DNA of 42,704 nt from Sandaracinaceae bacterium (GTDB lineage: Bacteria > Myxococcota_A > Polyangia > Polyangiales > Sandaracinaceae). The DNA lies in NCBI GenBank assembly GCA_019637095.1, contig JAHBWG010000081.1:1-42704 (forward strand), in the 5' to 3' direction. A model generated the notes under the pieces. It was not told where the DNA came from and did no database searches. It was given only the letters and a program-made list of their open reading frames with translations. Below, in pieces: positions 13,317 through 41,614 of the stretch (position 1 is the first letter of the stretch; each line of letters opens with the position of its first letter). A program made the translations under genes and the position numbers.

Positions 13317-13326
13317 GACCGGCTCG

Positions 13327-13332: not shown

Positions 13333-13445
13333 GTCGCGCCGGGCGAGGCAGGTCAACCGCGTGATTTCGGGCGACGCGATGTCAGAAGTCGCGCAGGTGT
13401 GCGTCGGATCGGCGTCGTCATCACCACCGGCGGCAGCGGCCATGG

Positions 13446-13451
13446 TAGGGT
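13446..13451 (+). promoter_or_regulatory. Possible -10 box (TAGGGT) for the cas operon
   Basis: TAGGGT lies 39 bp upstream of the cas10 GTG, with GGGGAGGA (13480-13487) as ribosome-binding site. No good -35 was seen. It is the only plausible promoter element before the ten-gene operon. Confidence 0.3.
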
Positions 13452-13490
13452 GGGCGTCGCGTAGGGCGTGACGCGCTCAGGGGAGGATGC

Positions 13491-22697: not shown

Positions 22698-22708
22698 GCC
22701 AAACCGTC

Positions 22709-22738
22709 TTGTCGGTGGCCGGCGTCTCACGATAGCCT
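22709..22738 (+). promoter_or_regulatory. Promoter of the sigma factor/Lon-TPR operon
   Basis: TTGTCG (22709-22714), an 18-bp spacer and TAGCCT (22733-22738), with 8 bp to the GTG at 22747. It is the best -35/-10 pair in the window. It shows that the sigma operon can be transcribed separately from the cas operon, probably as a leaderless mRNA. TTGTCG could instead be an ECF-type or autoregulated promoter element. Confidence 0.5.
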
Positions 22739-22746
22739 CGGCGGCG

Positions 22747-25086: not shown

Positions 25087-26843
25087 CGGAGCGCGCGTCG
25101 GTCGACGCGCTGATCCGAGGCGCGTTCGACGTCGACCGTCCGCTTGCGCAGCGCCGCCTCGACCTCGATCGGCTGCGGGAGCAGGCGTGCGCACACCCGC
25201 CCGACGAGCGCGCGCGTGCGCGGATCCGAGCGCTGGGTGGCGCGCTCGACCAGGCGCTCGCGGTGGAGTGGCGTCCAGGTGTTGGAGAAATGCACGTCGC
25301 ATTGACGAGCCCGTGCGGGCCGTCGACCGGCCGGCTCACCGTGCGGCGCGGCGGGATGGCCCATCGGGTCGAGGTCGGCGACGGCATCGGCACCTCGGCC
25401 AGCATGCAGGTCCGCGCGGCGTTCGACGCGGCCGCGGCGGCGGTGGCGCGCGCGGGCCGCGGGGTCCCGGAGGCGCGGGCGCGCGGGCACGTCGTCGAGT
25501 TGTGGACGCCCGATGGGACGCGCGTGGACGGGCGCTCGCTCGGGCTCGCGGCGGCGGCCGCGTTCGTCTCGTGCTGGTCGGGCCGCGCGCCGCGCGCCGA
25601 GGTGGCCGCGAGCGCCGGGGTCACGCGGGAGGGCGGGCTCGTCGCCGTCGACGGGATCGAGGACAAGGTGCGCGCGCTGCGCGAGCGCTACCCCTACGTG
25701 CGCGCGCTGCTCGTCGCCGCGGACCAAGTGCCCGCGCTCGACGCGATCGATGCGGTCGCGCTCACGCGCGCGGCGACGCTCGGGGGCGCGCTCGAGGTGC
25801 TCGGGCTCGACGTTCGCGCGATCGAAGGCGCGCCGCTTCCGTCCGCGCAGCGCAAGCGCATGCTCGAGGAGCTCGCGACGATCCAGGTGCCGAGCTACGA
25901 CGCGGGCACGTGGCGCGAGCACGCGATGCGGGCGCGCATTTGCGCGAGCGGCGGGTCGGCCTCGGAGACGACGCGCGCGCTCGGGTGGGCCGCGCTCTTT
26001 CATCTTCACGCAGGCGACCTCGACGACGCGAACGGCATCGCGCACGAGCTGCGCGGGCGCGAGCTCGACGCGCTCTCCGACGGCGCGCGCGTCTGGGTGC
26101 GCATCGTCCTGGCGACGACGGCGATCGACCGGGACCGTCACGACGACGCCGTGGCGCTCGCGCGCGAGGCGCTCGCCGACGCGCAGACGCTCCGCGGGGA
26201 CGACCGCGCCGAGCTGCTCGGGCGCGCGTACGGCACGCTCGGCCGGGCGCTGGTCCACGCTGGGCGGAGCGAGCAAGCCATCGAGCCGCTCGCGGCGGGG
26301 GCGGCGCACCATCGCGAGCACCTCGGGCGCGAGCTCGCGCGTTCTGCGATCTACCTCGCGACCGGGCTGCGACGCGCCGGGCGGCTCGACGAGGCGCTCG
26401 ACGCGATCGGCGAGGCGTTCGCCGCGATCGACGCGCACGCCCACGAGGAGGAGAGCGCGGTTTCGTTTCTCTACGCGCGCTACGAGCGAGGCCGCGTGCG
26501 CTTCGCGCGCGAGGAGCTCCGCGCTGCGCGCGACGACCTGCTCGCGCTGGTGGACGCGCAGGGGACTCACACGTACCCCGCGCTCGGGGCGCTCCGCTAC
26601 CTGGCCGCGATCGAGCAGCGCCTCGGCGAGGGCGACGGACGGCGCTGGCTCGAGGACGCGTGCGAGGTGGCCGAGGCCGAGTCGACCGGGGGCGCGCTCC
26701 GGCGCGTGGCCGCGGCGGCGGCCGGTGAGGCGCTCTTGCGCGGCGGCGCGCCGCCCGGGCTCGAGCCCCGGCTGCGCGCGGTCTGGATTCGTGTGATGGG
26801 CGAAGGTGCCGGAGAAGCCGCCCTCGACCGGTTGGTCTACTGA
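25083..26843 (+). CDS. Lon-like (S16) Ser-Lys protease fused to TPR repeats
   Basis: 586 aa, GTG start overlapping the preceding stop. Residues about 70-230 have the Lon protease fold pattern: VDGRSLGLAAAAAFVSCWSG gives catalytic S152, and GGLVAVDGIEDKVRALRERY gives K195. The 43-residue S-K spacing equals that of E. coli Lon (S679/K722). There is no AAA+ ATPase domain. Residues about 300-580 are TPR-like helical repeats (AYGTLGRALVHAGRSEQAIE, ATGLRRAGRLDEALDAIGEA). There is no SAVED or CARF domain, unlike CalpL. The TPRs presumably carry the signal or bind the substrate. It is last in the sigma operon and convergent with a CARF-HEPN gene 18 bp away. Confidence 0.82.
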   Translation: MTERASVDALIRGAFDVDRPLAQRRLDLDRLREQACAHPPDERARARIRALGGALDQALAVEWRPGVGEMHVALTSPCGPSTGRLTVRRGGMAHRVEVGDGIGTSASMQVRAAFDAAAAAVARAGRGVPEARARGHVVELWTPDGTRVDGRSLGLAAAAAFVSCWSGRAPRAEVAASAGVTREGGLVAVDGIEDKVRALRERYPYVRALLVAADQVPALDAIDAVALTRAATLGGALEVLGLDVRAIEGAPLPSAQRKRMLEELATIQVPSYDAGTWREHAMRARICASGGSASETTRALGWAALFHLHAGDLDDANGIAHELRGRELDALSDGARVWVRIVLATTAIDRDRHDDAVALAREALADAQTLRGDDRAELLGRAYGTLGRALVHAGRSEQAIEPLAAGAAHHREHLGRELARSAIYLATGLRRAGRLDEALDAIGEAFAAIDAHAHEEESAVSFLYARYERGRVRFAREELRAARDDLLALVDAQGTHTYPALGALRYLAAIEQRLGEGDGRRWLEDACEVAEAESTGGALRRVAAAAAGEALLRGGAPPGLEPRLRAVWIRVMGEGAGEAALDRLVY

Positions 26844-26861
26844 GGCCTACCCGACGGGCCG

Positions 26862-28046
26862 CTATCGCGTTCTGAGCTCCTGGTCCGGCAGCGCGTCGGG
26901 GAGCTGGGTCGGTGGCTCCTGCTTCGGGAACGCGACCTGAACGAACGAGGGCAAGAGGTGTTGCGCGAACCAGTCGCGGACGCGCGCGTGGGCCTCGGCG
27001 CTGAGCGGCGCGTGGCCGTGGGCCAGGACGGAGCCGTTGCGCTGCTTCGACAGATCGAGCCGCGGGCGCGCCGTCTCTCGCGCGACGGCGGCGAGCGATC
27101 CCTCGAGCCGGTCGAGGGCCTCCCACGCGGCGTGCTGTCCGAGGACCCGCTTGTCGTCGTAGCTCGGCGTGGTGAGGTCGGCGACGGGCGAGCTCGGCTC
27201 GACGTCGCCTGGATCGATCCCGTGCTCCCACCGGAGCGCCCACTGGGCGATCGCCTCGTTTGCGCGGTAGACCAACAGCACGGCGAGGTCGTAGCGGGTC
27301 GCCCGCGCGTGCCGCTCGGAGGCCAGCCAGAGGTCGAACGCGCGCGCCGCGTCCGACCGCTTCGACGGCGGGCTCGCGAGCGCGCCGAGGGACGGCATCG
27401 AAGGGACGAAGCGGGCGAGGGGCGCGAGCCGCTCACGCGCGTCTGCGTAGTCGAACGCGGCCCACGCGGCGTAGCCGCGCGAGAGCGCGAGGGCGCGCGA
27501 GGCTTCGGGACTCGGCCGGCGCAGGCCGCCGAGCGCCTCGACGGCGGCGGCGTAGTCGAACCGGCCCCACGCAAGAGCCGCGACGTCGAGCGCGAAGCGG
27601 CTCTCGAGCCCGCTCGTGTCGATGGAGACGATGTGCTCCGTCCCGGAGCGGACCTTGTGATGATCGGTGCGCGGGCCGAGGACGACCTCGACCTCGGCCT
27701 GCGTCGTCAAGGCGGCGAGCAGGAGCATCGCGCTCATCGACTTGGTGCCGCCGGTGTAGTCGACGACCAGGCGCGCCCCCGGCGCGCGCTCCGCGCGCAG
27801 GCACGCGAGGCAACGCTCGAGGATCGCGCCGGGCTCGTCGGCGGGCACTCGGACCACGGCGTACCGCGCTTCGTCGAGGCCGGCGTCGGCGGCCAGCGCG
27901 GGCACGGCGGCGTGGGTGCCGGGCTTGCCGGAGACCGGGTCGTCGTCGCTGGCGACGAACACGACGCGGTCCCAGTGCGCGGCGCTGAGGTGTCCGAGGA
28001 GCGGCTCGGGCGAGCCGCCGACGCTGAGCACGAGGGTCGAGACCAT
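26862..28046 (-). CDS. Second CARF-HEPN ribonuclease (TIGR02710-like)
   Basis: 394 aa, ATG at 28046. N-terminal CARF: LVLSVGGSPEPLLGHL, VVFVASDDD and VVDYTGGTKSMSAMLL (D96-Y-T-G-G-T-K102), the CARF binding loop. A helical middle domain is followed by a HEPN motif R336-N-G-S-V-L-A-H343 (R-x6-H) near the C-terminus. This order fits the TIGR02710/Csm6-like CRISPR-associated family. It is transcribed on the opposite strand from the cas operon with its own TATCCT box. It should be a second cyclic-oligoadenylate-activated RNase, perhaps tuned to another ring size than the one at 20320. Confidence 0.87.
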   Translation of the reverse strand: MVSTLVLSVGGSPEPLLGHLSAAHWDRVVFVASDDDPVSGKPGTHAAVPALAADAGLDEARYAVVRVPADEPGAILERCLACLRAERAPGARLVVDYTGGTKSMSAMLLLAALTTQAEVEVVLGPRTDHHKVRSGTEHIVSIDTSGLESRFALDVAALAWGRFDYAAAVEALGGLRRPSPEASRALALSRGYAAWAAFDYADARERLAPLARFVPSMPSLGALASPPSKRSDAARAFDLWLASERHARATRYDLAVLLVYRANEAIAQWALRWEHGIDPGDVEPSSPVADLTTPSYDDKRVLGQHAAWEALDRLEGSLAAVARETARPRLDLSKQRNGSVLAHGHAPLSAEAHARVRDWFAQHLLPSFVQVAFPKQEPPTQLPDALPDQELRTR

Positions 28047-28053
28047 GGGCTCG

Positions 28054-28059
28054 AGGATA
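28054..28059 (-). promoter_or_regulatory. -10 box TATCCT for the second CARF-HEPN gene
   Basis: Minus strand TATCCT, 7 bp before the ATG at 28046, so a leaderless transcript is predicted. No -35 match was seen. The rest of 28060-28177 shows no gene. Confidence 0.45.
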
Positions 28060-28177
28060 CCGGCCCGTTCGGGATCGCGGTGCAGCAGCCTCGGCGCTGT
28101 CAGGTTCGGGGCGCTGCGTACGTCATGGCGCTGTCGCGGCTCCGCGCGAGGGCGACGGGAGGGAGGTGACGGTCCTC

Positions 28178-28270
28178 ATGGGAAAGCGAATCGCGATCGA
28201 GGTCGGCGCGGCCGTCCTCCGTGCCCTCGTGAACGTGCTCGTGGACGTCCTTCGCAAGAAGGCCCGCTGA
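28178..28270 (+). CDS. Possible 30-aa cationic amphipathic peptide
   Basis: The ATG at 28178 starts a 30-aa ORF, MGKRIAIEVGAAVLRALVNV and on, ending DVLRKKAR. Its hydrophobic core of about 20 residues is flanked by Lys/Arg at both ends, the profile of small membrane-acting toxins such as TisB or Ldr. GGGAGGGAG lies 12 bp upstream, just before an in-frame GTG at 28166 that would add four residues. It is alone between divergent promoters and the Uma2 gene. It is very short and could be chance. Confidence 0.35.
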   Translation: MGKRIAIEVGAAVLRALVNVLVDVLRKKAR

Positions 28271-28341
28271 GCGTGCTCGCGTGAGCGGGACGAGCGCGGC
28301 GCGGCGCGCTCGCCTGCGTCGAGCCATGGATGGCTGCGTGC

Positions 28342-28347
28342 TACGCT
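28342..28347 (+). promoter_or_regulatory. -10 box TACGCT for the Uma2 gene at 28355
   Basis: TACGCT, 7 bp before ATG at 28355, the leaderless layout seen elsewhere in the window. GGAGG abuts the ATG. Confidence 0.4.
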
Positions 28348-28354
28348 CTGGAGG

Positions 28355-28912
28355 ATGAGCGAGCCGGCGCGAGAGATCCCTCGGCTCACCTTCGAGCAGG
28401 CCGCCGCGGCGGCGCCGGAGGTGCGCGGCGAGCTCGACGGGGGGAGGTTCGTGCCGGTGACTCGCAACACCTGGCGGCACGGCGAGGTCGTCGCACGCGT
28501 GACCCTCCTCTTCGGTCTGTACGCCCGGGAGCACGCGGGCTGGAGTGTCTCGGCGGGCGATCCAGGCGCGAAGCTCACGCACGATCCCGATACGCTCCGC
28601 GGTCCGGACGTGGGCATCGTCCGCGCGGAGCGGCGACCGGCTGGCCGAGGTGCCGCGGGCTGGCTGGATGGCGCGCCCGACGTCGCGGTGGAAGTGGTCG
28701 GCGACGCGCAGGGGCACTCGGACCTGGCGAAGAAGGCGCTCGAGTACCTCGCCGCGGGCGCGCGGGCCGTATGGGTCGTCGACCCTGGGCCGCGCCGCGT
28801 CGTCGTGTACACGCCGCCGAGCAGCGTGGCCGTGCTCGGCGCCGAGGACGTGCTCGACGGTGGCGACGCGCTGCCCGGCTTCCGGTGTTCGGTGGCCGAG
28901 CTCTTCGAGTGA
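28355..28912 (+). CDS. Uma2 family (DUF820) putative endonuclease
   Basis: 185 aa. Pattern of the Uma2 restriction-endonuclease-like fold: RGELDGGRFVPVTRNTWRHG, a LRGPDVGIVRAERRP strand with the conserved Asp, GAPDVAVEVVGDAQGHSDLA with the second acidic site, KALEYLAAGARAVWVVDPGP with the conserved K and VVDP strand, and a VLDGGDALPGF end, a frequent Uma2 C-terminal signature. It is closer to the family consensus than the copy at 7133. It is preceded by its own -10 box. The role in the island is unknown. Confidence 0.9.
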   Translation: MSEPAREIPRLTFEQAAAAAPEVRGELDGGRFVPVTRNTWRHGEVVARVTLLFGLYAREHAGWSVSAGDPGAKLTHDPDTLRGPDVGIVRAERRPAGRGAAGWLDGAPDVAVEVVGDAQGHSDLAKKALEYLAAGARAVWVVDPGPRRVVVYTPPSSVAVLGAEDVLDGGDALPGFRCSVAELFE

Positions 28913-28949
28913 CTCGCGTCGATCGTCGCGCACCGAGCTGCCTGCCCGC

Positions 28950-28955
28950 TATGCT
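28950..28955 (+). promoter_or_regulatory. -10 box TATGCT for the 544-aa membrane protein
   Basis: TATGCT, 9 bp before the ATG at 28965. It is identical in sequence to the boxes before 41017 and 41657. Confidence 0.4.
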
Positions 28956-28964
28956 CGACGCAGG

Positions 28965-30599
28965 ATGCGTGGACCGCCCCGCGAGGCGCCTCGGGCGCTG
29001 ACCCTCACCGGGGCGGACCTGGAGCTCTGGAGCGACCTGCCGCTGCCGCTCTCCGAGCTGGGCCTGCGGCTCGACGCGGGCCAGGAAGACTACTTCCTGC
29101 GCCTGCTCGAGCTCGTCGAGGACGCCGTCGTCCTCGTCGTCGCGCTCTCGCTCGTGCGGCTCGAGCCCCGCGCCGCGAGCACGCGCGCCCGAGCCCTCGA
29201 GCTCTCGAGTCGGCCGAGCTTCGGAGCGCGCGTGGATCTCCTGTGGCTCCTCGCCGACGGGGCGCCACGCGGCTGGGACCCGCGCGCGAGCGCCGAGTCG
29301 CAGCGCGCGCTGATCGAGCTCGTCAATCCCGAGTCGGTGCCTCGACGTCCGACGGTGCGCGACCTGTTCGCCGCGATCGTGAAGCTCCGCAACGACAGTC
29401 ATCACCGCCGGTTGGGGGCGCGGGAAGAGGCGACGCGAGGTCTCGAGCGAGCGGTCTTCTGGCTGTTGAGGCAGTGCCCTGCGCTGACCGAGCGGCTCTA
29501 CTGGGTGGACGAAGTCCGCCGCACGAGTGAGGGCACCGAGGAGCTGCGCGCGTGGTCGCTCTGGGGCCCGAAGATGGCGCGGTTCCGACGTGGGCAGTGG
29601 CAGCCGACCAGGCCTGGAGTGGTCCCGGGCCGGGTGTACCACGGTGAGCTGGTGGATCCCGTCGCGCTTCATCCGTTCTTCGTGGTGCGCGACGAGCGGC
29701 TGTACGTGCTCGACGAGGTGAAGGGAGCCAAGGGGGTCCTGCGTCACTTCGCGTCCCGCCAGGCCCTGGAGCCGCCCGCGTCGCTCGGCGACGTGTGGCC
29801 TGACGTCGAGGCGCCCCGCATCGCGACCGGCGATGCAGGCACGCGGCGGGCGCCCGTGAGCCTCGGGGTGTCCCGCCAGACTGCGGGCGCGGCGATGGCT
29901 TCCGAGTGGTCGGATGCGGTCGAGCCGCCACTTCGCCGGAGGCGTTGGCCTGGCGCCGTGCTCGTTGCGGCCCTCGTCTTCGCGACGGTCCTCTTCGTCG
30001 CGGTCGGCTCGTGGCGCATGCGCGATGACGAGCCGGTGGTGGTTCCCGCGCCAGCGTCGGGGGCCATCGCGCTCTCGCCGGGGGCGTCGACCTGTCCCAC
30101 CGCCCCGGGACCGGAGCGCCGCCCTCCCGCCGGTCTCCCGCACGCGCTGACGGGCGCCCCGCTCGAGTGGCGCGCCATGCCGAGCGCGCTGGCCCGTGCG
30201 TGCCCTGCCACCCTCGTCGTCGACCCAGGCGGCTGTCGAACCGCGCTCGTCGAGATCCGCTCGACGACCTGGGCGCCGGCGTGGCCGATCCCGTCGCACA
30301 CCGGGACGCATGTCGCGTTTCATCGGACCCATGGGCTCTTCGAGGTCATGGTCTACAGCGGGGTCGACGTCGCCGAGCTCGCCGCCTTCGCGGAACGCCG
30401 GCTCGGTCCGCCGCACCGCACGGAGGAACGTGGCCGGGTGTGGGAGTATCCCGACGACGCGGTCGGCGGCGAGACCCGGCTGCGAGTCTCGCCGCTCGCC
30501 CCCGGCCATTCGCTCGGGCGGAGCGCGATCCGGTTGACCCACCCGCCGGTCGCAGCGATCTACGCGCAGGAGATGCGGGCGTCCGGCTGCCGACGGTGA
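28965..30599 (+). CDS. Membrane protein with RN-x3-H motif N-terminal domain (544 aa)
   Basis: The ATG at 28965 follows a TATGCT box. The N-terminal 200 residues are helical (EDYFLRLLELVEDAVVLVVA) and contain LRNDSHHRR (R142-x4-H147), HEPN-type spacing also seen in the kinase at 9849. Residues about 200-270 look like a beta domain (RVYHGELVDPVALHPFFVVR, YVLDEVKG). One transmembrane helix lies at about 328-350 (WPGAVLVAALVFATVLFVAV), flanked by RRRRW on the inside. The region after it (about 355-544) is predicted extracytoplasmic, with paired Cys (ARACPATLVVDPGGC). It would be a single-pass protein joining a cytoplasmic sensor-like domain to an outer domain. No family was recognised. Confidence 0.75.
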   Translation: MRGPPREAPRALTLTGADLELWSDLPLPLSELGLRLDAGQEDYFLRLLELVEDAVVLVVALSLVRLEPRAASTRARALELSSRPSFGARVDLLWLLADGAPRGWDPRASAESQRALIELVNPESVPRRPTVRDLFAAIVKLRNDSHHRRLGAREEATRGLERAVFWLLRQCPALTERLYWVDEVRRTSEGTEELRAWSLWGPKMARFRRGQWQPTRPGVVPGRVYHGELVDPVALHPFFVVRDERLYVLDEVKGAKGVLRHFASRQALEPPASLGDVWPDVEAPRIATGDAGTRRAPVSLGVSRQTAGAAMASEWSDAVEPPLRRRRWPGAVLVAALVFATVLFVAVGSWRMRDDEPVVVPAPASGAIALSPGASTCPTAPGPERRPPAGLPHALTGAPLEWRAMPSALARACPATLVVDPGGCRTALVEIRSTTWAPAWPIPSHTGTHVAFHRTHGLFEVMVYSGVDVAELAAFAERRLGPPHRTEERGRVWEYPDDAVGGETRLRVSPLAPGHSLGRSAIRLTHPPVAAIYAQEMRASGCRR

Positions 30600-30604
30600 T
30601 CGTC

Positions 30605-30625
30605 GCGCCTCCGCAGACGAGGCGC
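30605..30625. terminator. Possible bidirectional terminator hairpin
   Basis: GCGCCTC (30605-30611), a 7-nt loop and GAGGCGC (30619-30625) form a perfect 7-bp stem between the convergent 544-aa gene and druE. There is no clear T-run on either side, so termination strength is uncertain. Confidence 0.45.
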
Positions 30626-30652
30626 TCCGCTGCCGACGGCAGGCGCTCCGGC

Positions 30653-33600
30653 TCAGTTCACGTAGACGATGACGGGTGCGGCGAGCGGATGGACCTCGAA
30701 GTCCGCTGCGAGAATGCGTCGAGCCTGCTCCGCCGCGTCGAGGCGGAAGTCGAGCTTGGGCGCAAGGGTTGGCGCGAGGAAGCTCAGCCCGTGGTCGAGC
30801 CGCACGCGGAGCGTGCTCTCGTCGCTCCAGCGCAGGACGAGCTCGCGGTGGTGCGGGAGCTGGTGTTTGCTCTGTACGTCGACCGTGGGGCGCCCACCGA
30901 CCTGCGCGAGCAACGCCTCGAGCACTCGCCGCTGATCCGCTTCCTCGCGCCAGTCGTGCGCGAAGGAGTCCGGGTACTTGTCGGTCGTCGCGACTGCGGC
31001 GGTGCGGAGTCGGATGACCGTGTGCTCGTCGAGCCCGCCCGGGTCGTCTCGTAGCGCGCGCAGCACCTCGTAAAGCACGCGCGCGGCGACCGGACGGTGG
31101 ACGTATCGGTCCGTGTATTCGACCTCGACGAGGCGAGCCTTCCCTGCGAGTCGATCGCGCAGGTTCGTCGCGCGCCGCGTCAGGTGCGACCAAAACCGGC
31201 CGCCCAGCGCGGCGACGGCGCCGTTGAGTTGGCCGGTGATCGCGATCTCCACGAACTGGTTGGGGACCGGCTTGAGGAGCTTCCTCGCGCTCGCCTCCCG
31301 CAGCTCGAGGGGGGGAAGCGGGCCGTCGAGGCGAGCGCCGACGTAGCGCGCGTTCTCGCCCGCCTCCCCGGGCCCGGCCCAGCGCTCGTTGGGGGCGAGG
31401 CCGACCGGATCGGTGGCCGCCCACCGCGCGGACCGCGGGCCTTCGGCCTCGAGGACCAACCAGGCCTCGCCGACTCGCGCCCCATCCCCCGCGCTCAGCG
31501 CGACGTGGAAGCCGTCGGACTCCAGGCGATGCGCGAGGGTGTTCGCCTCGTCCCAGGGGAGCTCCGCGTGCGCGCGCTCCGGGACGACGACCGTGACCTC
31601 GACGCCTTCGCCCCGCAGGTTGCGCAGGGTGTCGCGCAGGCTCCAGGCGTCGTAGTCCCAGTCCCCCGTCGCGCCCCCGAGGTGCACGCGGACGCGCTCG
31701 ATCCCGGCGCGCTGCCGATGCGCGAAGAGCGCGCCGCGCAGGGACAGGGTCTCGAGACGGGTCTCGGGGCCGAAGGCCTGGAGCGCCTCGGGGAGGCGCA
31801 GCGCGTCCACCAGATCTTCGCTGAGCGCCTCACGCGCGCGATGGCGATCGAGCCGCTCCACGTGGGCCTGCGTGTCGTAGGAGAGCAAGCACCCGTGGCA
31901 GGCCGCGTCGCACCGCTGCGGACAGTCGAGCAAGGCGCGTGCATCTTGGAGGAGCGCGTGGAGGTCGGAGGCCACCGTCGCGACGTACCCAGCCCCCCCT
32001 TGCGCCGCGTCGAAGAGCACGATGCTCGGGCGCGCCAGCCCCTCTCCGTGCGCCGAGCGACCGATCGCCCAGCCGATCTCGCGCGGATCCACGCCGAGCC
32101 GCCGGGCGAGGGCGTCGCGCAGCGCGACCGCGATGGAGACGCACTGCGTGTGCTCTTCGATCGGATGGGCCGTCCTCGGGTCGTCGAGCTGCAGTTCGAC
32201 CACGTCCGTGCGCGTCGAAGCGCCGAGCCGCAGGTGCTCGACGACGCCGAAGTCGCCAGCGGCACCCTCGCAGAGGGTTCCGCGCTCCCCACCACCCCGG
32301 AGCCGGCGGTGATTGCGGAAGGTCGCGGAGATCGTCGCCGGACCGGAGGCTTGTGACTCTGCGTAGCCGCAATGGAGGCAGACGGCGTACCCGCCCCCGT
32401 GCTCGCCGGCCGAGTGATGGTGGACGTACCCGTCGGGATCGTACCGGAAGCGACCGGCGCGAGGGTCCGCGAGGACCTGCCACGGGGCCCCACCCGCGCT
32501 GATCCAGGAGGGCTCGCGTCGAACGTACCGCTCCTTGGAGAGGTCGTTGTCCGGGCGCGCGGCGATCGCGGTGGCGAAGCCCGCAGGCTCGAGGTATCGG
32601 TGGGCGGCGAGCCTCGAAGAACCGCAGCTCGCGCAATGCTCGACGCGCTGAGCGCGGTCCCCTGCCTTTCCGCACTCCTTGCAGAGCCAGGCGTACCGAA
32701 GGCTCTGCACCTCTCGATACTCGCCGTTGGCCGTCGTCGGGAGCTGCCAGCTCAGCGTGACCCCGCGTGACTCGTAGACCATCCCGTCGATCACGACGCC
32801 GCTGCCCGGTGCGTAGTCGAGCAACGCCCGCTCGACCTGGCGCGACGGGAAGCCACGGGCCCGCTGGAACCCCTCGTCGCGCTCGGGCTCGGGGCTCGGC
32901 GGGTTCCGCTCGGCCTCGATCTGCTCCATCGTGAGGTAAACGAACGGGACGACGTGCAGCGGGAAGCCGTACGATGGCAGGTAGCCGCCGCTCGCGAGCG
33001 TCCGCAGGAGGTACTCCTCGCGCATGCGGCGGACCTGGAGCCAGATGGCCCGCTGGGCGGGCTGCGCTCGCTGGCCGGCCTCCGGGCGACCGCCCGCGCG
33101 ATCGAGCTCGGCGGTGAGGGCCTCGTGCTCGTCGAGCCAAGCGTCGGCGATCCGTCGGAGCTGCCGGCGCGCATCTTCGAGCCGAGGCCCAGGGCGACCA
33201 GCGAGCGCCGTGCCGCGCGTGACGAGCTCGAGGCCCGAGGCGACGTGCGAGTCGTCGCTCGCGTCGTCGTCGAGCCAGCGCAGGTAGTCGGCGAAGCGCG
33301 GCTCGGCGGGCGGCGAGGCGAGGAAGAAGGCGTCGCAGCGCATGGTGTGCGCGTCCGCCGCGCCGATCGAGCGCAGGAACGCGGCGAGCAGGACCGAGTG
33401 GACGTGGCGCTGCACGATGCGCTCGGAGCCGAGAGAGACCGCCGGGACGTGCACGGGGTGCGTGAACGGCCAGCTGGGGTTGGCGAACACGGCGGCGCCG
33501 TGGGGAGAGCCCTGGCACAGCGTGAGGACGGTGGCGCGCGCTTCACCTCGGCGCCCGGCGCGGCCTGCACGCTGTTGGTAGTTCGCGGGCCCGGGCGGGA

Positions 33601-36600
33601 CGTTGTTCATCGCGACCGCGGCGAGGCCCCCGATGTCGACGCCCATCTCCATGGTCGTCGAGCAGCTCAGGACGTTGACGCGGCCTTCCTTGAACGCCTT
33701 CTCGAGTTGGATGAGGCGGTTTTTGTCGACCTGGGCGGAGTGCTCCGCGCTCTGGTGGTAGAGCGTCGGAGAGAAGCTCGCGATTCGGTCCGAGAACTCG
33801 GTCCAGAGGCCGCGCTCGCGCAGCGCGCGAACTCGGGGGTCGGTCTCGAGCCACGCGTGGATGTCCGAGAGCGAGGCAGGGGAACCGCCGCGATGGCGCC
33901 CGAAGACGAACCGAGGGCGCGGCATCTCGACGCGGTCGCACGGGGTCGCCTCCTCCTCCGTCGCGAAGGGCGAGACACCTTCGAGCGTGCGGCTGAGCAC
34001 GCGGCGGGTGATCGGGCAGACGAAGCCGGAGTCGACCGTCTCGAGCAGGACCTCGTCCGTGGTCGTGCCGTGCAGTGGGAGGCGGTACCCATCTCCGTCG
34101 GCCGCCAGGGGGCCGGCTTCCACCAGCGCGCGGAACGCGCGGCGCAGGATCTCGTCGAGCTGCGCGCGGTCTGCGCTCGAGGTCGGATCGAGCCGAAGTG
34201 CCCGGGCGAGCACGCGCGCGAGGCGGGGAAGTCGCCCCCTCTCGGGCACCCTGGGCCACGGATAGAGGCGGTTCTTCACCGAGGTCCCGTCAGGGTCGAC
34301 GATCGCAGGCTGGCTCATGCGGACGCCGAGCCAGCGACGGATGTCCGGGTCGACGAACGTGACCGCGCCGAGGCTGCGGACGAAGTAGTCCAGGCTCACG
34401 CGCAGGAGCTCACGCCATCGCTCGGTCACGTCGCCGCCGAGCGCGCCTGCGGCCTCCCGCCAGACGCCAGGGGCCTCCCTCATCGCGTCGATGCTCGGAT
34501 AGGCGAAGCGCACCAGGCCCAGCGTCTCGAGTGAGCCTTGGCGTTTCGGCCGGCGCATGAGCTCCCGGAGGAGGAGTACGCGCGCCATCTGTTGCGCTGT
34601 GAGGTCCGCGGCGGCGTAGCGCTCACGCAAGCTCGCACGCATCCACCCGCGCACCTCCTCTCGTGCCGCCAGCCGGCTCTCGAGAGTCCTCCATGGGAGT
34701 GCGCCGCGCGCGCTGGCGCGCTCGACCGCCGCGATCTCTTGCTCCAGTTTCGCGATCGTCGCCTCGAACAGGTGCGCCTGCGCCGGAAGCTGGGAGGCTG
34801 CGGCGCGTTGCGCGTCGAGCTGTTGTCGGAGCTTCGTGACATCGTCTGGCGCGGCGGGCTTCGCCTCACCCCACAGCGTGTGATAGACGGTGGCGCGCAC
34901 GAAGTTGCGTTCGGCCTCGAGCTGCCCGCGCAGCGCGAAGCGCGCGGTCCCTTGGCGCGAGTCGGTGAACGTGATGAGCTTGCGTCCCTCCGCCGGAAGG
35001 CGATGGGCGGGGCCGCTCCTCGGATCGGGCGGCAACTGCTCGAGGACCGCCGGGATGCCCACGCCGAGGAGGAACGGCGCGCCGAGGCGCACCGCGCGTA
35101 GGGTGCGGCCCGTGTACGCGTCGAGGGCTCCGCAACGGCCGCAACGGTAGTTGCTTTCGTCCATCTCGGCGACGTAGGCGTGCCCAGAGCCCGTGCCGAA
35201 GCTCCCCTCGCGCGGTTCCAGGGGGACCGGAGCAGCGGTTGCGTCGGTGGCCGAGTCACGCATGGCGCCGTTGGGCCCCGCGAACAGCGTCGGCCGGAGA
35301 GCTCTGGCGTTCCCCTCTTCGTCGGTCTCGTCGTCGTCGGCTTCGTCATCGTCGAGCGCGGTACCCGGCTCCCACGCACACGGCTCGAACCGGTCCCCAC
35401 GCACCGCGGCGGCCAGGTATGCCTCCCCGCAGCCGTTGCAAAGGACGACCTCGAGCACGATCGCGCCGCAGGCGCAGCGCGTCCGACGCTCGCGGTAGAC
35501 CGCTCCGAACGGCCAATCCGTGCCGGCGAGCGTCGTGCCCGCGACGGCGCCGCAGCCGCGGTCGACGCAGGCCCACAGCCCGGTGAGGGAGCGCGTCATG
35601 AAGTGCCCGCGAAGCGGGAGGAACGCGTGCTCGTCTGGCGGCTCGCCCGAGGCGCCCGGAGGGAGGCGCTCGGTCGCTCGGCTCGCCTCGTCCAACCAGG
35701 CGAGGGTCTCGGATGGGGTCGCCGTGCCCAGGACCTCCCGTGCGTCGGCGAGCGATACGGGGCCGCGGTTCGCGCGCGCGCGCAGCTCCCGCATCGGCGC
35801 CGAGCGCGCCAGCGCCGGGTAGCACGCCTCGTCGTCGAGCGCGCGCACGCCCTCGAGCGACGGCAAGGGCTCCTCGTGCGCGAGGCACTCCTCGGGCAGC
35901 GGCGGTGCGAGCCGCTGTCCGGTCACGACCCGGACCTGATCGACTGGGATGCCCGCGAGGTCGGCGAGGAACGCTTGGAGCTTCGGCTCGGCGTCCTTCT
36001 CTCCGATCGTCGCGGACGTCGCGACGAACCGGACGTCCTCCGGTCGCACGTCGAAGGCGTGCATCACGCGCCGCAAGAGGAGCGAGAGCTCGGCGGCCGC
36101 CGAGCCGAGGTAGGTGTGCGCCTCGTCGAGGACGATCCAACGCAAGCGCCCGCGCGACCCCTCGACGATGGGCGCGTCGATCGCGCGGATCATCATGTAC
36201 TCGAGCATCGTCGCGTTCGTGACGAGGATCGGCGGTGGGTCCCGGCGCAACGCCCGGCGCGAGCGGACCTCGTTGGGCGTAGCGGCCGCTGCTGACGGCT
36301 TCACGTCTTCGGGCGTGTTCCCGTTGTAGAGGCAGAAGCGGATGGAGTCGCCGAACGCGCTCGTCCAGGCGAGCAGCCGATCCCGTTGGCTGTTGATGAG
36401 GGCGTTGAGCGGGTAGAGGAACAGGGCCCGCACGCCAGAGAGCGAGGTCGGCGCCCCGATCGCCGCCCGCTCGCGCGCGAGGTCGTCGAGGATGGGGACC
36501 AGAAAGCACTCCGTCTTTCCGCTCGCCGTCCCCGTCGTGACGACGATCGACTTGCGGTCCTCGATCAGGGTGCGCCACGCGTCGACCTGATGGACGTAGG

Positions 36601-36910
36601 GAGCGCGCGTGAGCGGGAACGCCTCCGCGGCGTAGGCCTGCTTCGGGGCCGAGATGGCGCGCTTCAGTTCGTCGTGGAGGAGCTCGCACTCCGACAGGGG
36701 CGCAGGGTGTCGAGCCCACTCGAACAGCGCTTCGAAGAGCGGAGGGGCGAGGAAGCTCTCGGGCCCGTCGGCGTCGGAGCCGAACACGTCCAGCAAGTGG
36801 CGTCGCAGACCGTCGCTCGCGGGGCTCGTCTGGCTGACCGTCGCCCGGCTCGTGCGCCGACGGAGCTCCTCGGCGAGGCGAGAGAAGTGACGCTGGTCAG
36901 TGGGTGACAT
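30653..36910 (-). CDS. druE: DruE-like giant DEAD/DEAH helicase with DUF1998
   Basis: 2085 aa. Helicase core: VVTTGTASGKTECF (Walker A, about 127-133), VLDEAH (DEAH 262-265), FVATSATIGE (motif III) and QQRAGRAGRRGEA (motif VI) in the C-terminal RecA lobe. Cysteine pairs follow in the inserted regions (CACGAIVLEVVLCNGCGEAY; YRCGRCGA). A DUF1998 region is shown by the four-Cys cluster CPQRCDAACHGCLLSYDTQA. Size, domain order and the DruH-like gene upstream (14-bp overlap) fit DruE of Druantia systems, type III. DrmA/DrmB of DISARM split these domains over two proteins, so a single chain argues for Druantia. It probably moves on or unwinds phage DNA. The ATP sites look intact. Confidence 0.85.
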   Translation of the reverse strand: MSPTDQRHFSRLAEELRRRTSRATVSQTSPASDGLRRHLLDVFGSDADGPESFLAPPLFEALFEWARHPAPLSECELLHDELKRAISAPKQAYAAEAFPLTRAPYVHQVDAWRTLIEDRKSIVVTTGTASGKTECFLVPILDDLARERAAIGAPTSLSGVRALFLYPLNALINSQRDRLLAWTSAFGDSIRFCLYNGNTPEDVKPSAAAATPNEVRSRRALRRDPPPILVTNATMLEYMMIRAIDAPIVEGSRGRLRWIVLDEAHTYLGSAAAELSLLLRRVMHAFDVRPEDVRFVATSATIGEKDAEPKLQAFLADLAGIPVDQVRVVTGQRLAPPLPEECLAHEEPLPSLEGVRALDDEACYPALARSAPMRELRARANRGPVSLADAREVLGTATPSETLAWLDEASRATERLPPGASGEPPDEHAFLPLRGHFMTRSLTGLWACVDRGCGAVAGTTLAGTDWPFGAVYRERRTRCACGAIVLEVVLCNGCGEAYLAAAVRGDRFEPCAWEPGTALDDDEADDDETDEEGNARALRPTLFAGPNGAMRDSATDATAAPVPLEPREGSFGTGSGHAYVAEMDESNYRCGRCGALDAYTGRTLRAVRLGAPFLLGVGIPAVLEQLPPDPRSGPAHRLPAEGRKLITFTDSRQGTARFALRGQLEAERNFVRATVYHTLWGEAKPAAPDDVTKLRQQLDAQRAAASQLPAQAHLFEATIAKLEQEIAAVERASARGALPWRTLESRLAAREEVRGWMRASLRERYAAADLTAQQMARVLLLRELMRRPKRQGSLETLGLVRFAYPSIDAMREAPGVWREAAGALGGDVTERWRELLRVSLDYFVRSLGAVTFVDPDIRRWLGVRMSQPAIVDPDGTSVKNRLYPWPRVPERGRLPRLARVLARALRLDPTSSADRAQLDEILRRAFRALVEAGPLAADGDGYRLPLHGTTTDEVLLETVDSGFVCPITRRVLSRTLEGVSPFATEEEATPCDRVEMPRPRFVFGRHRGGSPASLSDIHAWLETDPRVRALRERGLWTEFSDRIASFSPTLYHQSAEHSAQVDKNRLIQLEKAFKEGRVNVLSCSTTMEMGVDIGGLAAVAMNNVPPGPANYQQRAGRAGRRGEARATVLTLCQGSPHGAAVFANPSWPFTHPVHVPAVSLGSERIVQRHVHSVLLAAFLRSIGAADAHTMRCDAFFLASPPAEPRFADYLRWLDDDASDDSHVASGLELVTRGTALAGRPGPRLEDARRQLRRIADAWLDEHEALTAELDRAGGRPEAGQRAQPAQRAIWLQVRRMREEYLLRTLASGGYLPSYGFPLHVVPFVYLTMEQIEAERNPPSPEPERDEGFQRARGFPSRQVERALLDYAPGSGVVIDGMVYESRGVTLSWQLPTTANGEYREVQSLRYAWLCKECGKAGDRAQRVEHCASCGSSRLAAHRYLEPAGFATAIAARPDNDLSKERYVRREPSWISAGGAPWQVLADPRAGRFRYDPDGYVHHHSAGEHGGGYAVCLHCGYAESQASGPATISATFRNHRRLRGGGERGTLCEGAAGDFGVVEHLRLGASTRTDVVELQLDDPRTAHPIEEHTQCVSIAVALRDALARRLGVDPREIGWAIGRSAHGEGLARPSIVLFDAAQGGAGYVATVASDLHALLQDARALLDCPQRCDAACHGCLLSYDTQAHVERLDRHRAREALSEDLVDALRLPEALQAFGPETRLETLSLRGALFAHRQRAGIERVRVHLGGATGDWDYDAWSLRDTLRNLRGEGVEVTVVVPERAHAELPWDEANTLAHRLESDGFHVALSAGDGARVGEAWLVLEAEGPRSARWAATDPVGLAPNERWAGPGEAGENARYVGARLDGPLPPLELREASARKLLKPVPNQFVEIAITGQLNGAVAALGGRFWSHLTRRATNLRDRLAGKARLVEVEYTDRYVHRPVAARVLYEVLRALRDDPGGLDEHTVIRLRTAAVATTDKYPDSFAHDWREEADQRRVLEALLAQVGGRPTVDVQSKHQLPHHRELVLRWSDESTLRVRLDHGLSFLAPTLAPKLDFRLDAAEQARRILAADFEVHPLAAPVIVYVN

Positions 36911-39900
36911 CGAAGGCCTCCGGGTCGCGGGCGAGCTCGGCGGCGATCATGCCGGCGAGTGAGAGACAGTGCGCGTGCTGGAACCAGTCCGGATCGAAGT
37001 CGGCGACGCGGCGCACTGCGAACAATGCCTCCTCCGGCAGCGTCTCGCCGAGGACGGATACGGCAGCCACGAGCGCCGGAGCGAGCAGCACGGCCTCCTC
37101 GAACGGTCGACTCGGCGCGCAGCTGAAGCGCCGGGCCAGACTCACCGCACGCTGGGCGACGTAGTCGTCGAGCGCAGGTTCGGGCCACCGCCGTGTCGCG
37201 GACCGCGCTCGCATCTGCGCGGCCGCTGGCTCCCACTGCTGGTGACCGATGGCCGCATAGGCAGCGATGCGCCCGAGCGCCTCAGCATCGAGGCCGGGGA
37301 GCGAGAGGCTGACGACCGCTCGAACGATCTCCAGGAAGGGGGCCCGGCGTTGGAGGGCGCCCAGGGGCTCGCCGAGTAGCGCACTCGTGGCGGCGGCAGG
37401 GCTTCCGTAGAGCTCGGTCACGGCAGGCGTCGCGCGGATCCAGTCGTGTAGGCGCCGCGCGCCACGTACCCACGAGCGGAGCGGGAGCGCTGCCCAGAGG
37501 AAGGGGAGCTCCTCGAGGGAGGACCACGCAGCCGGGAGGTCGTGGGTGTGCAGCGCGAACACGACCGCGGCGTTGGGGCGCGCCGCGACCCGACGGATCA
37601 CGTCGAACGTCGTCGCCGGGAGGGTACCCAGCGTCCGCGCAAACGAAAGGACGGTCGCCCAGCGCTCGTGGCCGTAGTCGTTCGCCATGGTGACGAGGAG
37701 TTGATCGAGCGCCTCCGTACGTCGCGTCGAGTCCTCGATCCGAACCGCGGCGCGGAGCTCGTCGAGTGTCTCGACCGTCTCCGCCGTCGTGGCGCGAATC
37801 GTCAGCAAGAGGGGGCGCAGTCGCGCCCAGTCGTCTTGCCATCCGAGGACGAGCCAGGGGCCGGGCGTGAGCCCAGCAGGAATCTCCCACTCGCTCTGCC
37901 CGACTCGGCCAAACGGGACTGGGGGCTCGTCGGGCCGGTCGAGGGGCCGCGCGTCCACCTGGATCCGGTCGAGCCCCTGTGGCCCCAGCAGCGCCACGGA
38001 CGCCTCGGACAGCCGGACGCTGCGGGGGGTACCATCCGGGCCGCGGACGGGCTCGAGCTGCGTGTCGTAGCGGCCGACGTGCAGCGAGGGCGAGGCGTCG
38101 CGAGGGGTCCCTCCGAGCGCCGTCATCCGCAGCTCGACAGACGCGTCGAGACAGGGGCTACTCGCGAGCATGGTCGCGACGGACCGCTCGACGCGGTCGA
38201 GCGGAAGCTCGTAGAGGTGGTGGCCTCGATCGGGCAGCTCCGCGAGAAGGTGCCACTCGCCACGGTCGACGCGCCCGTTGACGCTGATCGTGACGCGCCC
38301 TTCCATGCTGATCCTCTCGTGGCGGTCTTCGATGGAACGCGCGCGAACGGTCCCCAGGCGATCGGCGGCGCGCAGCTCGTTCGCTGGCAGGCTCCGACCG
38401 TCGAAGCCGACGAAGCGGCGAAACTGGATCGGGCAGGCCACGTCGAGCGTTGCCTCCGCTCCCTCCCGGAGGAGGAGACGGAGCTGCACGGTCGTGGGCG
38501 GCGCCTCCGCGGTCTTCAGCTCGACCGAGAACCGGCCCGGCGCCAGCGGCCTCGACTCGGCGATGAGCCCTTCGGCGAGCGTGGCCCGCAATCCGCGGAG
38601 GTGCGCGCTGGCGACCGTGAGCACGCCGGCGCCTCGCGCTGGCGTGGCGCGTTCGACGGTGAGATCGCTCGGTACGATCGTGGCCCGCGTTCGGAAGATC
38701 GTCTCGCCCTCCTCGCGCACACGAAGGAGCACGTTCCCGTGCGCGTTCTCGAGGCCGCCTCGCCAGTCGCGCTCGCGCTCAGGGCGCCACTCGACCCGGT
38801 CGGAAGGGAACGAACGCTGGCAGCCGTCGTGGAGACGGACCAGCTTGGGCGGGCCCATCCAGACCTCTGCGCCTGCGAAACCAAAGGTGCGCAAGCGACC
38901 GCGGAGCGAGAACGGGGATGTCTCGTCTTCACGCGCGCTCGTCGCGAAGCGACAGCGGTCGTCTCCATTCGTCCACGTGGCCGTGCCGGAGAGCTGCACG
39001 AGCCGCCGCCCGCCCTCGAGGCCTTCGGCGATCGCCGTCACGGTTGCGGTCTCGTCCGACGCGAGGGCTCCCTCGCACGGGAGGACGAGCAGCATCGCGT
39101 CGCCCGCCGCGCGCGCGGAGCCGAACGCTCGTACGGCGTTGTGCTCGCGAAGGCGTCCGCCCTCGAGGACCCACGGCAGATCGTCGGCGATGGGCGCGCC
39201 TCCGGTGACCTCGGCGATCCCGATGTCCTCGGCGCCCACGCTGGCCACCACGCGCACCGCGCCGAACAGGCCCGGTCCGCGGTGGATGGGCCGCGGTGGC
39301 GTCGTGGGACGAAGGGCGAAGCGGTCCGTGCCCTGATAGCGCGTCGCCGTCGCGACCCAACGCCGCGTGCCGTCGGGCAACAGGAGCGCCAGGTGGACGA
39401 ACGGGGGGAGGTCTTGCAGGCCGAGCATGGAGGCGAGGGCGCTCTCCGCCACGGCCGGTTCCAGGATCGCGGCGCGCTCGAACGCGAACGATGTGCCGGT
39501 GGTGCGAAGCACGAGGCGGATCTCGATGGGATCGGCGCGTTGCGCGCGCCCGCTCGATCGCGGCGCGCGCAAGAGAACGGTCAGGAGGCGGTCGGCCACC
39601 GTGTCGTCGATGCGCAGAGGGACGCGAGCGCGCCACTCGGGGTTCCGTGCGTCGAGGGCGGCGACCGGGTCTTCGTCGTCCGAGGTGGACCGTCGGAGCG
39701 CGACGATGGCGTCCACGAGCGTGGCGGCGAGCTCGTGGACCAGGTCGTTGCGCAGGGTCGAAGGCAACGAACGGTCGAGCAGGGGCGCGAGCTCGTGTGC
39801 GGGCTGCTCATACTCCTCGGCGGCTCGCAGCAGGCGCGTGAAGTACTCGGAGAGCCCGTTGGCGTTCTCTCCCGTGAGCAGGCGCAGCGGTAGCCCGCCC

Positions 39901-40280
39901 TGGCACGCGAGCGTGCGGTGGTAGTAGCTACGGTCCTTGCGCACGAGGACGTCGCCACAGCGCCAGTGATCCAGGCCCCGGCGCACCATGTCGTAGAGGC
40001 GAGCGCCGACGCCGTGAGGCCATCCAGTGGCCTCGAAGATGGGCGACCAGCTCCACGGGCCGCCCTCGTGGGTGCGACAGAAGTGGGTGGCAGCGAAGAG
40101 GCAGAACGCGGCGGCGACGTGGCCGGGCTCGTGGTCGCCGGTGGCGAAGGCGACCCGCAGGAGGCGCTGCAGCTCGTCCATCGTGGCCTCGTCGACGCGA
40201 TAGCGCCAGAGCGGCGCCCTCTCGTCGCGGCCGACTCCCGAGCTCTCGCGCACCTGGCGCAGGAGGGTCGTGATGCTCAT
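36897..40280 (-). CDS. druH: DruH-like protein (STY4851/ECs_5259 family), Druantia type III
   Basis: 1127 aa from ATG at 40280 with GGAGG about 6 bp before. The N-terminal 200 residues match my recollection of the STY4851/ECs_5259 family: EGGPWSWSPIFEATGW, then RLYDMVRRGLDHWR, HRTLACQGGLPLRLLTGENA and LSEYFTRLLRAAEEY, later NPEWRARVPLRIDDTVADRL. The middle is a long run of beta-rich repeats (for example RVVASVGAEDIGIAEVTGG, LFLRGRLRT-type strands) and the C-terminal 300 residues are helical. There is no enzymatic motif. DruH with DruE defines Druantia type III. Its molecular role is not known. The 4-bp overlap with the 51-aa ORF upstream and 14 bp with druE make one operon. Confidence 0.78.
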   Translation of the reverse strand: MSITTLLRQVRESSGVGRDERAPLWRYRVDEATMDELQRLLRVAFATGDHEPGHVAAAFCLFAATHFCRTHEGGPWSWSPIFEATGWPHGVGARLYDMVRRGLDHWRCGDVLVRKDRSYYHRTLACQGGLPLRLLTGENANGLSEYFTRLLRAAEEYEQPAHELAPLLDRSLPSTLRNDLVHELAATLVDAIVALRRSTSDDEDPVAALDARNPEWRARVPLRIDDTVADRLLTVLLRAPRSSGRAQRADPIEIRLVLRTTGTSFAFERAAILEPAVAESALASMLGLQDLPPFVHLALLLPDGTRRWVATATRYQGTDRFALRPTTPPRPIHRGPGLFGAVRVVASVGAEDIGIAEVTGGAPIADDLPWVLEGGRLREHNAVRAFGSARAAGDAMLLVLPCEGALASDETATVTAIAEGLEGGRRLVQLSGTATWTNGDDRCRFATSAREDETSPFSLRGRLRTFGFAGAEVWMGPPKLVRLHDGCQRSFPSDRVEWRPERERDWRGGLENAHGNVLLRVREEGETIFRTRATIVPSDLTVERATPARGAGVLTVASAHLRGLRATLAEGLIAESRPLAPGRFSVELKTAEAPPTTVQLRLLLREGAEATLDVACPIQFRRFVGFDGRSLPANELRAADRLGTVRARSIEDRHERISMEGRVTISVNGRVDRGEWHLLAELPDRGHHLYELPLDRVERSVATMLASSPCLDASVELRMTALGGTPRDASPSLHVGRYDTQLEPVRGPDGTPRSVRLSEASVALLGPQGLDRIQVDARPLDRPDEPPVPFGRVGQSEWEIPAGLTPGPWLVLGWQDDWARLRPLLLTIRATTAETVETLDELRAAVRIEDSTRRTEALDQLLVTMANDYGHERWATVLSFARTLGTLPATTFDVIRRVAARPNAAVVFALHTHDLPAAWSSLEELPFLWAALPLRSWVRGARRLHDWIRATPAVTELYGSPAAATSALLGEPLGALQRRAPFLEIVRAVVSLSLPGLDAEALGRIAAYAAIGHQQWEPAAAQMRARSATRRWPEPALDDYVAQRAVSLARRFSCAPSRPFEEAVLLAPALVAAVSVLGETLPEEALFAVRRVADFDPDWFQHAHCLSLAGMIAAELARDPEAFDVTH

Positions 40281-40432
40281 CCGTGCCTCCCCACGGCTCG
40301 ATGGCGGGCCTCGAGTCCCGCCCACAGACCCGACCCGCCCAGGTCCGAGTACACCCGATCGCCCGCGGTGAGCGCAACCATGTGGTTGTGAAGCGCTCGG
40401 GGCGCGGCGCGAGAGCGGCTCGTGGTGGCCAT
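40277..40432 (-). CDS. Small 51-aa protein coupled to druH
   Basis: ATG at 40432 with GGAG 5 bp upstream. The stop TGA overlaps the druH ATG (ATGA). The C-terminal half, MVALTAGDRVYSDLGGSGLW and AGLEARHR, is not low-complexity and has a folded look. The N-terminus is basic. ATGA coupling suggests it is truly translated and feeds ribosomes to druH. It could be a leader peptide, a small partner of DruH or the remnant of a longer gene. No family was recognised. Confidence 0.5.
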   Translation of the reverse strand: MATTSRSRAAPRALHNHMVALTAGDRVYSDLGGSGLWAGLEARHRAVGRHG

Positions 40433-40484
40433 GCGTCTCCGACGCGCGAGCGCCCCCGGACTGACAGGCGACCTTTCGAAACGC

Positions 40485-40510
40485 CGAAGCCCGCCTCGCG
40501 GCGGGCTTCG
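40485..40510 (-). terminator. Rho-independent terminator of the tRNA gene
   Basis: A perfect 11-bp stem (CGAAGCCCGCC with its complement) and a 4-nt loop, immediately downstream of the tRNA on the minus strand, followed by GCGTTTCG with a short T stretch. Confidence 0.8.
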
Positions 40511-40511
40511 T

Positions 40512-40595
40512 TGCGGAAGAGAGGACTCGAACCTCCACGTCCTTTCGGACACCAGATCCTTAGTCTGGCGCGTCTGCCAGTTCCGCCACTTCCGC
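40512..40595 (-). tRNA. tRNA-Leu (anticodon AAG as read)
   Basis: 84 nt, class II. Acceptor stem GCGGAAG pairs with CTTCCGC, discriminator A. The D-arm contains AACTGGCAGACGC. Anticodon stem CCAGA/TCTGG encloses the 7-base loop CTAAGGA, which places AAG at positions 34-36. The long variable arm is GTCC-GAAA-GGAC. The T-arm has TTCGAGT as its loop with one G-U pair in the stem. CCA is not encoded. The long variable arm and the A73 discriminator confirm leucine. AAG is unusual, as bacteria normally use GAG for CUU/CUC. A terminator follows directly. Confidence 0.92.
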
Positions 40596-40633
40596 GTGGT
40601 GGGCGCGAGAAGTTAGCCGCAGCGCCCGTGAAG

Positions 40634-41017
40634 TCAAGCGTTGGAATCACGATTCGGGCGGGTCGCCCAGATGGCCCACGCGATGAGCACGCCCTGGATG
40701 GGCAGGCGCACCCACAGCGCCCACGCCGGCGCGTCGTAGGTGCCCTCGTCGGCGAGCGCCATGTGGAGGTTCGCCGGGAAGACGGCGACGAGCAGCGCGA
40801 CGAGGCCCCAGCCGGCGAGCGAGCGCGCGCGCGGGACGAGGACGAGGACGCCCAGGACGATCTCGGCGACCCCGCTGAGCCAGACGAGCTCGCGGTGCCA
40901 GGGGATCCACGGCGGCATGATCGAGACGTAGAACGCCTCGTTCACGAAGTGGTTCACGCCGGCGGCGACGAAGAGGACGCCGAGGAGGATCACGAGGACG
41001 AGCCGCGCGCGTCGCAT
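40634..41017 (-). CDS. DoxX-like small integral membrane protein
   Basis: 127 aa with four hydrophobic segments: about 5-22 (RLVLVILLGVLFVAAGVNHF), about 45-62 (LVWLSGVAEIVLGVLVLV), about 68-85 (AGWGLVALLVAVFPANLHMA) and about 100-118. N-H-F after the first helix and P-A-N-L-H-M in the third are typical of DoxX-like proteins, whose function is poorly known. I chose ATG 41017. The in-frame ATG at 41029 lies inside the TATGCT -10 box, so it would not be in the transcript. Confidence 0.85.
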   Translation of the reverse strand: MRRARLVLVILLGVLFVAAGVNHFVNEAFYVSIMPPWIPWHRELVWLSGVAEIVLGVLVLVPRARSLAGWGLVALLVAVFPANLHMALADEGTYDAPAWALWVRLPIQGVLIAWAIWATRPNRDSNA

Positions 41018-41024
41018 GGCGTCG

Positions 41025-41182: not shown

Positions 41183-41614
41183 ATGGAGATGAACGAGAAG
41201 ATCGGGAAGCTGAGCGCGCATTGGGTCTGGCTGTTCGCGCTCGCCGCGGTCGTGGTGGGCGTCGGCGCCGCGTACGCGACGGCCGGGCTCGGGAGCAAGG
41301 TGTCGAGCGCGGTGTACTTCGGCGTGTTCCTGACGTCGGGCTTCGCGGCGACGGCGCTGACCAAGGCCAAGGCGCTGCTGTCGCTGAGCGCGTTCCTCCT
41401 GGCGTCGCTGTTGAGCGCCGCGAGCTACTACGTCGTGACGATGCAGGCGGTCGCCGAGACGACCAGCGCGCTCGGCGCGGCGGAGGCGGGCGGGGCGCTC
41501 GGCGCGGCGATCGGGATCTTCGTGGCGGTGATCACGTTCTTCGTGAGCGCAGCCGGCGGGGTCGGCGGGGCGCTCGCGGGGCTGCGCGCGCGCAAGCAGC
41601 TCGCCGCGGCGTAG
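41183..41614 (+). CDS. Small membrane protein, three to four helices (143 aa)
   Basis: Two possible starts: ATG 41183 and ATG 41189. GAGAGG (41175-41180) is better spaced for the second. Hydrophobic segments at about 12-32 (HWVWLFALAAVVVGVGAAYA), 42-60 (VYFGVFLTSGFAATAL), 65-90 (LLSLSAFLLASLLSAASYYV) and 103-130 (ALGAAIGIFVAVITFFVSAA). Short basic tail LRARKQLAAA. No family was recognised. The 165-bp stretch before it (41018-41182) holds only the divergent promoter region. Confidence 0.75.
   Translation: MEMNEKIGKLSAHWVWLFALAAVVVGVGAAYATAGLGSKVSSAVYFGVFLTSGFAATALTKAKALLSLSAFLLASLLSAASYYVVTMQAVAETTSALGAAEAGGALGAAIGIFVAVITFFVSAAGGVGGALAGLRARKQLAAA

Follow-up and report, generated by a model that had tools for sequence, protein, structure and literature searches.

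Two large genes, druH and druE, occupy the same strand of the window, i. e. the whole stretch of 42,704 nucleotides that was analysed. druH lies immediately upstream of druE, and the two genes overlap by 14 bp (Table 1). A preliminary description of this DNA had placed two large minus-strand genes at these positions and, coupled to the first of them, a small open reading frame, and in all this it was correct: the 51-codon ATG frame is present, its TGA overlaps the ATG of druH, and a GGAG motif is located upstream of it. The start of druH is itself preceded by a Shine-Dalgarno-like GGGGAGG (read by eye), which is stronger than the GGAG of the small frame.

Table 1. Features of the Druantia locus in the window, and tRNA genes close to Druantia III operons at other loci (L numbers).
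Sequence	Feature	Position	Strand	Remarks
Window	druE	30653..36910	minus	2085 aa; YprA-like SF2 helicase with MrfA-type Zn-binding domain
Window	C-terminal region of druE	30653..36910 (druE)	minus	collinear with the PLD-bearing part of the solved DruE
Window	druH	36897..40280	minus	1127 aa; ATG start
Window	51-codon ATG frame	40277..40432	minus	its stop overlaps the druH start as ATGA; most likely a non-coding leader
Window	Leader from tRNA 3' end to druH	40281..40511	minus	231 nt
Window	G+C-rich hairpin	40485..40510	minus	right after the tRNA; no T run; not called by the terminator scan
Window	tRNA-Leu (anticodon AAG)	40512..40595	minus	ARAGORN; Rfam RF00005, 53.6 bits; edge of conserved gene order
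L024	tRNA upstream of operon	6466-6542		
L038	tRNA upstream of operon	5449-5523		
L040	tRNA upstream of operon	6023-6108		
L055	tRNA downstream of operon	16645-16720		
L060	tRNA downstream of operon	16685-16761		
L076	tRNA downstream of operon	16704-16780		
L089	tRNA downstream of operon	16216-16292		

The view that the large genes are a genuine Druantia type III pair, as had been proposed, is strongly supported by family models and by comparison with solved structures. DruE matches the PADLOC model DruE3 (PDLC00037) with 2060.5 bits over residues 6-2074 of 2085, as compared to 562 bits for DruE1 and 373 bits for DruE2, the models of other Druantia types, and DruH matches DruH3 (PDLC00049) with 242 bits over residues 3-1112. 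Pfam detects DEAD, Helicase_C and MZB domains in DruE, and a Pfam search with DruH gave no match. Moreover, DruE aligns with the solved DruE 9tu7 (1089.6 bits, residues 5-2066), and DruH aligns with the chain named DruH in 9tud (residues 17-938, E = 1.1e-30). A YprA-like helicase core is common to DruE, DrmA of DISARM, DpdJ of Dpd and BrxHI of BREX, and this could point to DISARM or another helicase system; however, the probability of such an assignment is practically nil: the competing models DrmA, DpdJ and BrxHI/SngC reach 52.9, 72 and 90-97 bits, respectively, and the neighbouring gene encodes DruH rather than a partner of any of these systems. The family-model scores and the matches to the solved DruE and DruH thus refute this assignment.

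The individual residues were inspected as well. In an alignment of eight DruE sequences, the helicase motifs SGKTE, DEAH, TSATI and QRxGRAGR and the paired cysteines (Zn) are invariant. The protein carries a putative C-terminal PLD-type nuclease: it is collinear with 9tu7 up to residue 2066, and H2020, R2022 and D2039 are conserved. For DruH, 19 of the 22 positions mutated in PMC13192584 could be mapped. Ten of them are identical here, among them F69, R79, W88, W115, T131, L132, G136 and G137 (numbering of PMC13192584), and nine differ, including E75, R78, H85, K87, Y114 and L129. At least one residue is kept in seven of the nine groups of loss-of-function DruH mutants of that study.

Judged from these comparisons, the operon is a diverged yet ordinary Druantia III system. 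The E. coli and Klebsiella systems (9tu7, 9tud; PMC13192584) likewise consist of two genes, druH followed by druE; their DruE is collinear with ours over nearly its full length, including the DEAD/DEAH core and the MZB Zn domain, and their DruH over residues 17-938, with identities of about 35% for DruE and 19-21% for DruH. According to PMC13316683, the genes of Mycolicibacterium smegmatis overlap, too, by 17 bp, and its DruH has nearly the same length (1132 aa), whereas its DruE is shorter (1667 aa) and the protein studied here has an extra C-terminal part.

As described in PMC13192584 and PMC13316683, DruH is likely to sense a structural protein of the phage and shows nuclease activity that depends on dimerisation. 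DruE, a 3'-loading helicase that forms dimers and bears a nuclease at its C-terminus, acts on long DNA in which single strands are exposed. With respect to contacts between the two proteins the papers differ: PMC13192584 reports no stable DruH-DruE interaction by mass photometry, PMC13316683 an interaction that is essential. If the system studied here works in this way, DruH would recognise the infection via a phage structural protein, and DruE, as a dimeric YprA-like helicase-nuclease, would load onto phage replication intermediates at 3' single-stranded DNA, which it would then degrade. The parts present at our locus fit this published scheme, and from this we infer that the operon is active in its host genome.

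The 51-codon frame had been suggested to be a regulatory leader or a missed subunit. Several observations bear on its coding capacity. The leader has a GC content of 73%, and at positions 40277-40432 all three frames of the minus strand and one of the plus strand lack stop codons, apart from the frame's own stop. The frame even remains open upstream into the tRNA gene: an ORF is called at 40277-40552, and the run of open codons numbers 111. The ATGA overlap arises because druH starts with ATG AGC. Given this ATGA, when the 231-nt leader was shuffled 5000 times, 6.2% of the shuffled sequences had an ATG frame of at least 51 codons, 29% a frame of this length with any start, and 4.1% one with a GGAG-like site; the window contains 101 ATGA sites, for which the respective values are 3%, 17% and 3%. 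The overlap and the length of the frame are therefore not beyond chance. A start was assigned for 78 other druH genes, and 29 of them have NTGA at this start (hand count); thus the ATGA carries little weight. A frame of at least 20 codons ending at the same +1 position precedes nine of these 78 genes; only two such frames reach 51 codons, and none is related to ours. The codon score of the frame, 0.04 per codon, is ambiguous: it is the best of the six frames, and it compares to 0.40 +/- 0.21 for 136 segments taken from genes and -0.38 +/- 0.37 for 680 segments read in a wrong frame, with 18% of the false segments reaching this value and 4% of the real gene segments scoring as low. Finally, a single-sequence structure model predicts two helices (mean pLDDT 78, pTM 0.40), which we consider weak evidence either way.

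It is the codon score and the GGAG that favour translation, albeit weakly. Together with the ATGA overlap, they would fit a translated, lineage-specific leader whose termination at the ATGA feeds ribosomes into druH, the peptide itself being without function. Such a leader would have arisen recently and would set the level of DruH by termination-reinitiation. Both the existence of this leader and its effect on DruH are unlikely, given that druH has its own, stronger ribosome-binding motif, that frames at the same position are rare and unrelated in front of other druH genes, and that overlap and length lie within chance. If the idea were nevertheless true, this Druantia would be tuned at the level of translation, a control that the available parts of PMC13192584 and PMC13316683 do not describe for the family.

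A conserved small gene should be detectable upstream of other druH genes. We gathered 89 loci by DruE or DruH similarity; as an alignment of DruH proved too diverged for scanning, the scan relied on the DruE alignment, from which the best 80 of 581 confirmed loci were kept. A DruH-like gene is present at 86 of the 89. Left out were the three loci without it (L029, L034 and L074, with druE matches that start within 252 nt of a contig end) and five loci without the DruH N-terminus (L025, L027, L064, L067 and L073). L069, L071 and L088 belong to the resulting 81 loci, and since their druH start is unassigned they are outside the set of 78 starts, which were determined by a simple in-house rule. 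Four loci offer less than 600 nt of upstream DNA (L098, 72 nt; L009, 257 nt; L080, 268 nt; L097, 413 nt). In tblastn searches (word size 2) of the regions that begin 2 kb before druH and extend 600 nt into it at these 81 loci, the 51-aa frame had no match at E <= 0.01 and five at E <= 1. Control pieces of our DruH of equal length were recovered at the same loci in seven cases for residues 1-51, 31 for residues 20-70, 54 for residues 52-102 and 30 for residues 100-150. Thus, the searches would have picked up a small gene as well conserved as the main part of druH, whereas one diverging like the DruH N-terminus would mostly have escaped them. The seven best chance matches (L013-L019) sit in unrelated frames; the match at L019 has nine residues in common with the N-terminus of an apparent aminotransferase (by eye), and we take it as chance.

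The result was the same at the level of genomes. DruH occurs in six of the 317 genomes of the class that were searched, its own included, and the closest relative is only 45% identical; at this distance, a small gene that is young or evolves fast could escape detection. A scan of the genome_contigs collection with DruH as the single query found no relative. The 51-aa frame matches none of the 317 genomes but its own at E <= 0.001, and its best non-self match, in one genome, has an E value of 0.0033, which is the chance level for 317 genomes. In the DruH-bearing genomes G264, G287 and G116 the matches listed are not near druH, for G313 the only match has an E value of 0.78, and G276 has none among the matches listed. 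IMG/VR, Pfam, PHROGs and PADLOC gave no match to the frame either. We also looked for any small gene of general occurrence upstream of druH: among 607 upstream frames, 62 cross-locus pairs were similar at E <= 0.001, and this candidate was rejected, as by eye these pairs represent closely similar neighbouring loci (such as L020/L051 and L079/L081) or larger upstream genes. The larger genes common to locus pairs stop some 14-320 nt short of druH and are possibly recurrent defence neighbours (L041/L068, L042/L087, L046/L057, L055/L066/L077, L058/L082, L084/L093 and L052/L101).

The first-gene position in the operon and the modelled two helices might mark the 51-aa protein as a true third component of this Druantia, be it a subunit, an inhibitor or a regulator. 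We consider this highly improbable: no homologue was found beside any other druH searched, and PMC13316683 and PMC13192584 describe a Druantia III of two genes, which protects. Neither text contains terms for a small ORF or a leader peptide, and among the papers listed in literature searches on Druantia none deals, by its title, with a small upstream component. The proposal of a missed subunit or regulator is thus not supported, since the frame is not conserved and the published systems consist of two genes. Rather, the locus very probably contains a standard two-gene Druantia III operon behind a tRNA-Leu, and it is most likely by chance that the GC-rich leader stays open over these 51 codons.

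The leader was also analysed for other functions. No sigma-70-type promoter was called at 40000-40700, and a scan for terminators found none. Three related genomes (G311, G312 and G313) carry a T-tailed hairpin at the place of the hairpin in our window, and by inference the latter is the terminator of the tRNA. A structured leader RNA was considered and rejected: the fold is not unusual (z = -1.52), and Rfam gives the tRNA alone.

The three related genomes have the same order of a gene at 41183-41614, a DoxX/MauE-like gene (40647-41021) and the tRNA-Leu. The similarity stops just past the tRNA: the 231-nt leader is not common to the tRNA locus of these relatives, and none of the frames of at least 100 codons downstream of the tRNA in their stretches matches the window beyond it. 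The loss of the shared order after the tRNA places druH at the edge of DNA that is not common to the relatives. An untranslated leader at the edge of an island is accordingly the likeliest identity of the 51-codon frame, its lack of translation being presumed from the evidence above.

Island integrases often lie behind tRNA 3' ends. As the frame is oriented like the tRNA and follows its 3' end, it might be a remnant of an integrase or another gene at the edge of the tRNA-inserted island. Yet we regard this as improbable: there is no Pfam or PHROG match at E <= 10, with HMMER filters dropping most weak matches, and the candidate was dismissed on this lack of a profile match. Moreover, an attachment-site repeat was sought and rejected: the tRNA 3' end has no copy in the window, and its single second copy in the genome (C176) sits where a whole tRNA-Leu matches, and is thus just another tRNA-Leu end. 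Two of the relatives contain the 3' end of the tRNA-Leu in perfect copies of 29 nt (G312:C702:20920-20948 and G313:C86:3254-3282); the copy in G312 is about 4 kb away from a tRNA-Leu-like match and resembles an island attachment site.

The position behind a tRNA recurs elsewhere. The tRNA scans took in 81 of the 89 loci, and at seven of these 81 other loci the Druantia III operon has a tRNA no more than 1 kb away (Table 1), where the density of tRNAs at greater distances would predict about 1.5 in a post hoc comparison. In all seven cases the 3' end of the tRNA faces the operon. This fits with insertion behind tRNA 3' ends, as for the Druantia III islands of E. coli, which PMC12458937 locates at tRNA-Leu and tRNA-Phe.

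The DNA not shared with the relatives also harbours a type III CRISPR-Cas set that adjoins the Druantia operon (window positions 13491-22697, plus strand, and 26862-28046, minus strand). It includes Cas10, Cas6 and further Csm3-like RAMPs, one frame that matches both Csm3/Cas7 and Csx10-like Cas5 III-D models, and two CARF-HEPN (Csx1/Csm6-like) proteins, one encoded on each strand; a CRISPR array was not apparent among the direct repeats at 12500-31000. A 684-aa frame without a Pfam or PADLOC match (28545-30599, plus strand) is located between the CRISPR region and druE. The Druantia operon is carried in a defence region directly behind the tRNA-Leu.

Our analysis adds one diverged copy of Druantia III in a high-GC genome, and a third subunit need no longer be considered a candidate. 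Of greater use is a by-product, the setting of the operon directly behind a tRNA 3' end: together with the seven other loci, it extends to other bacteria what PMC12458937 reports for the islands of E. coli.
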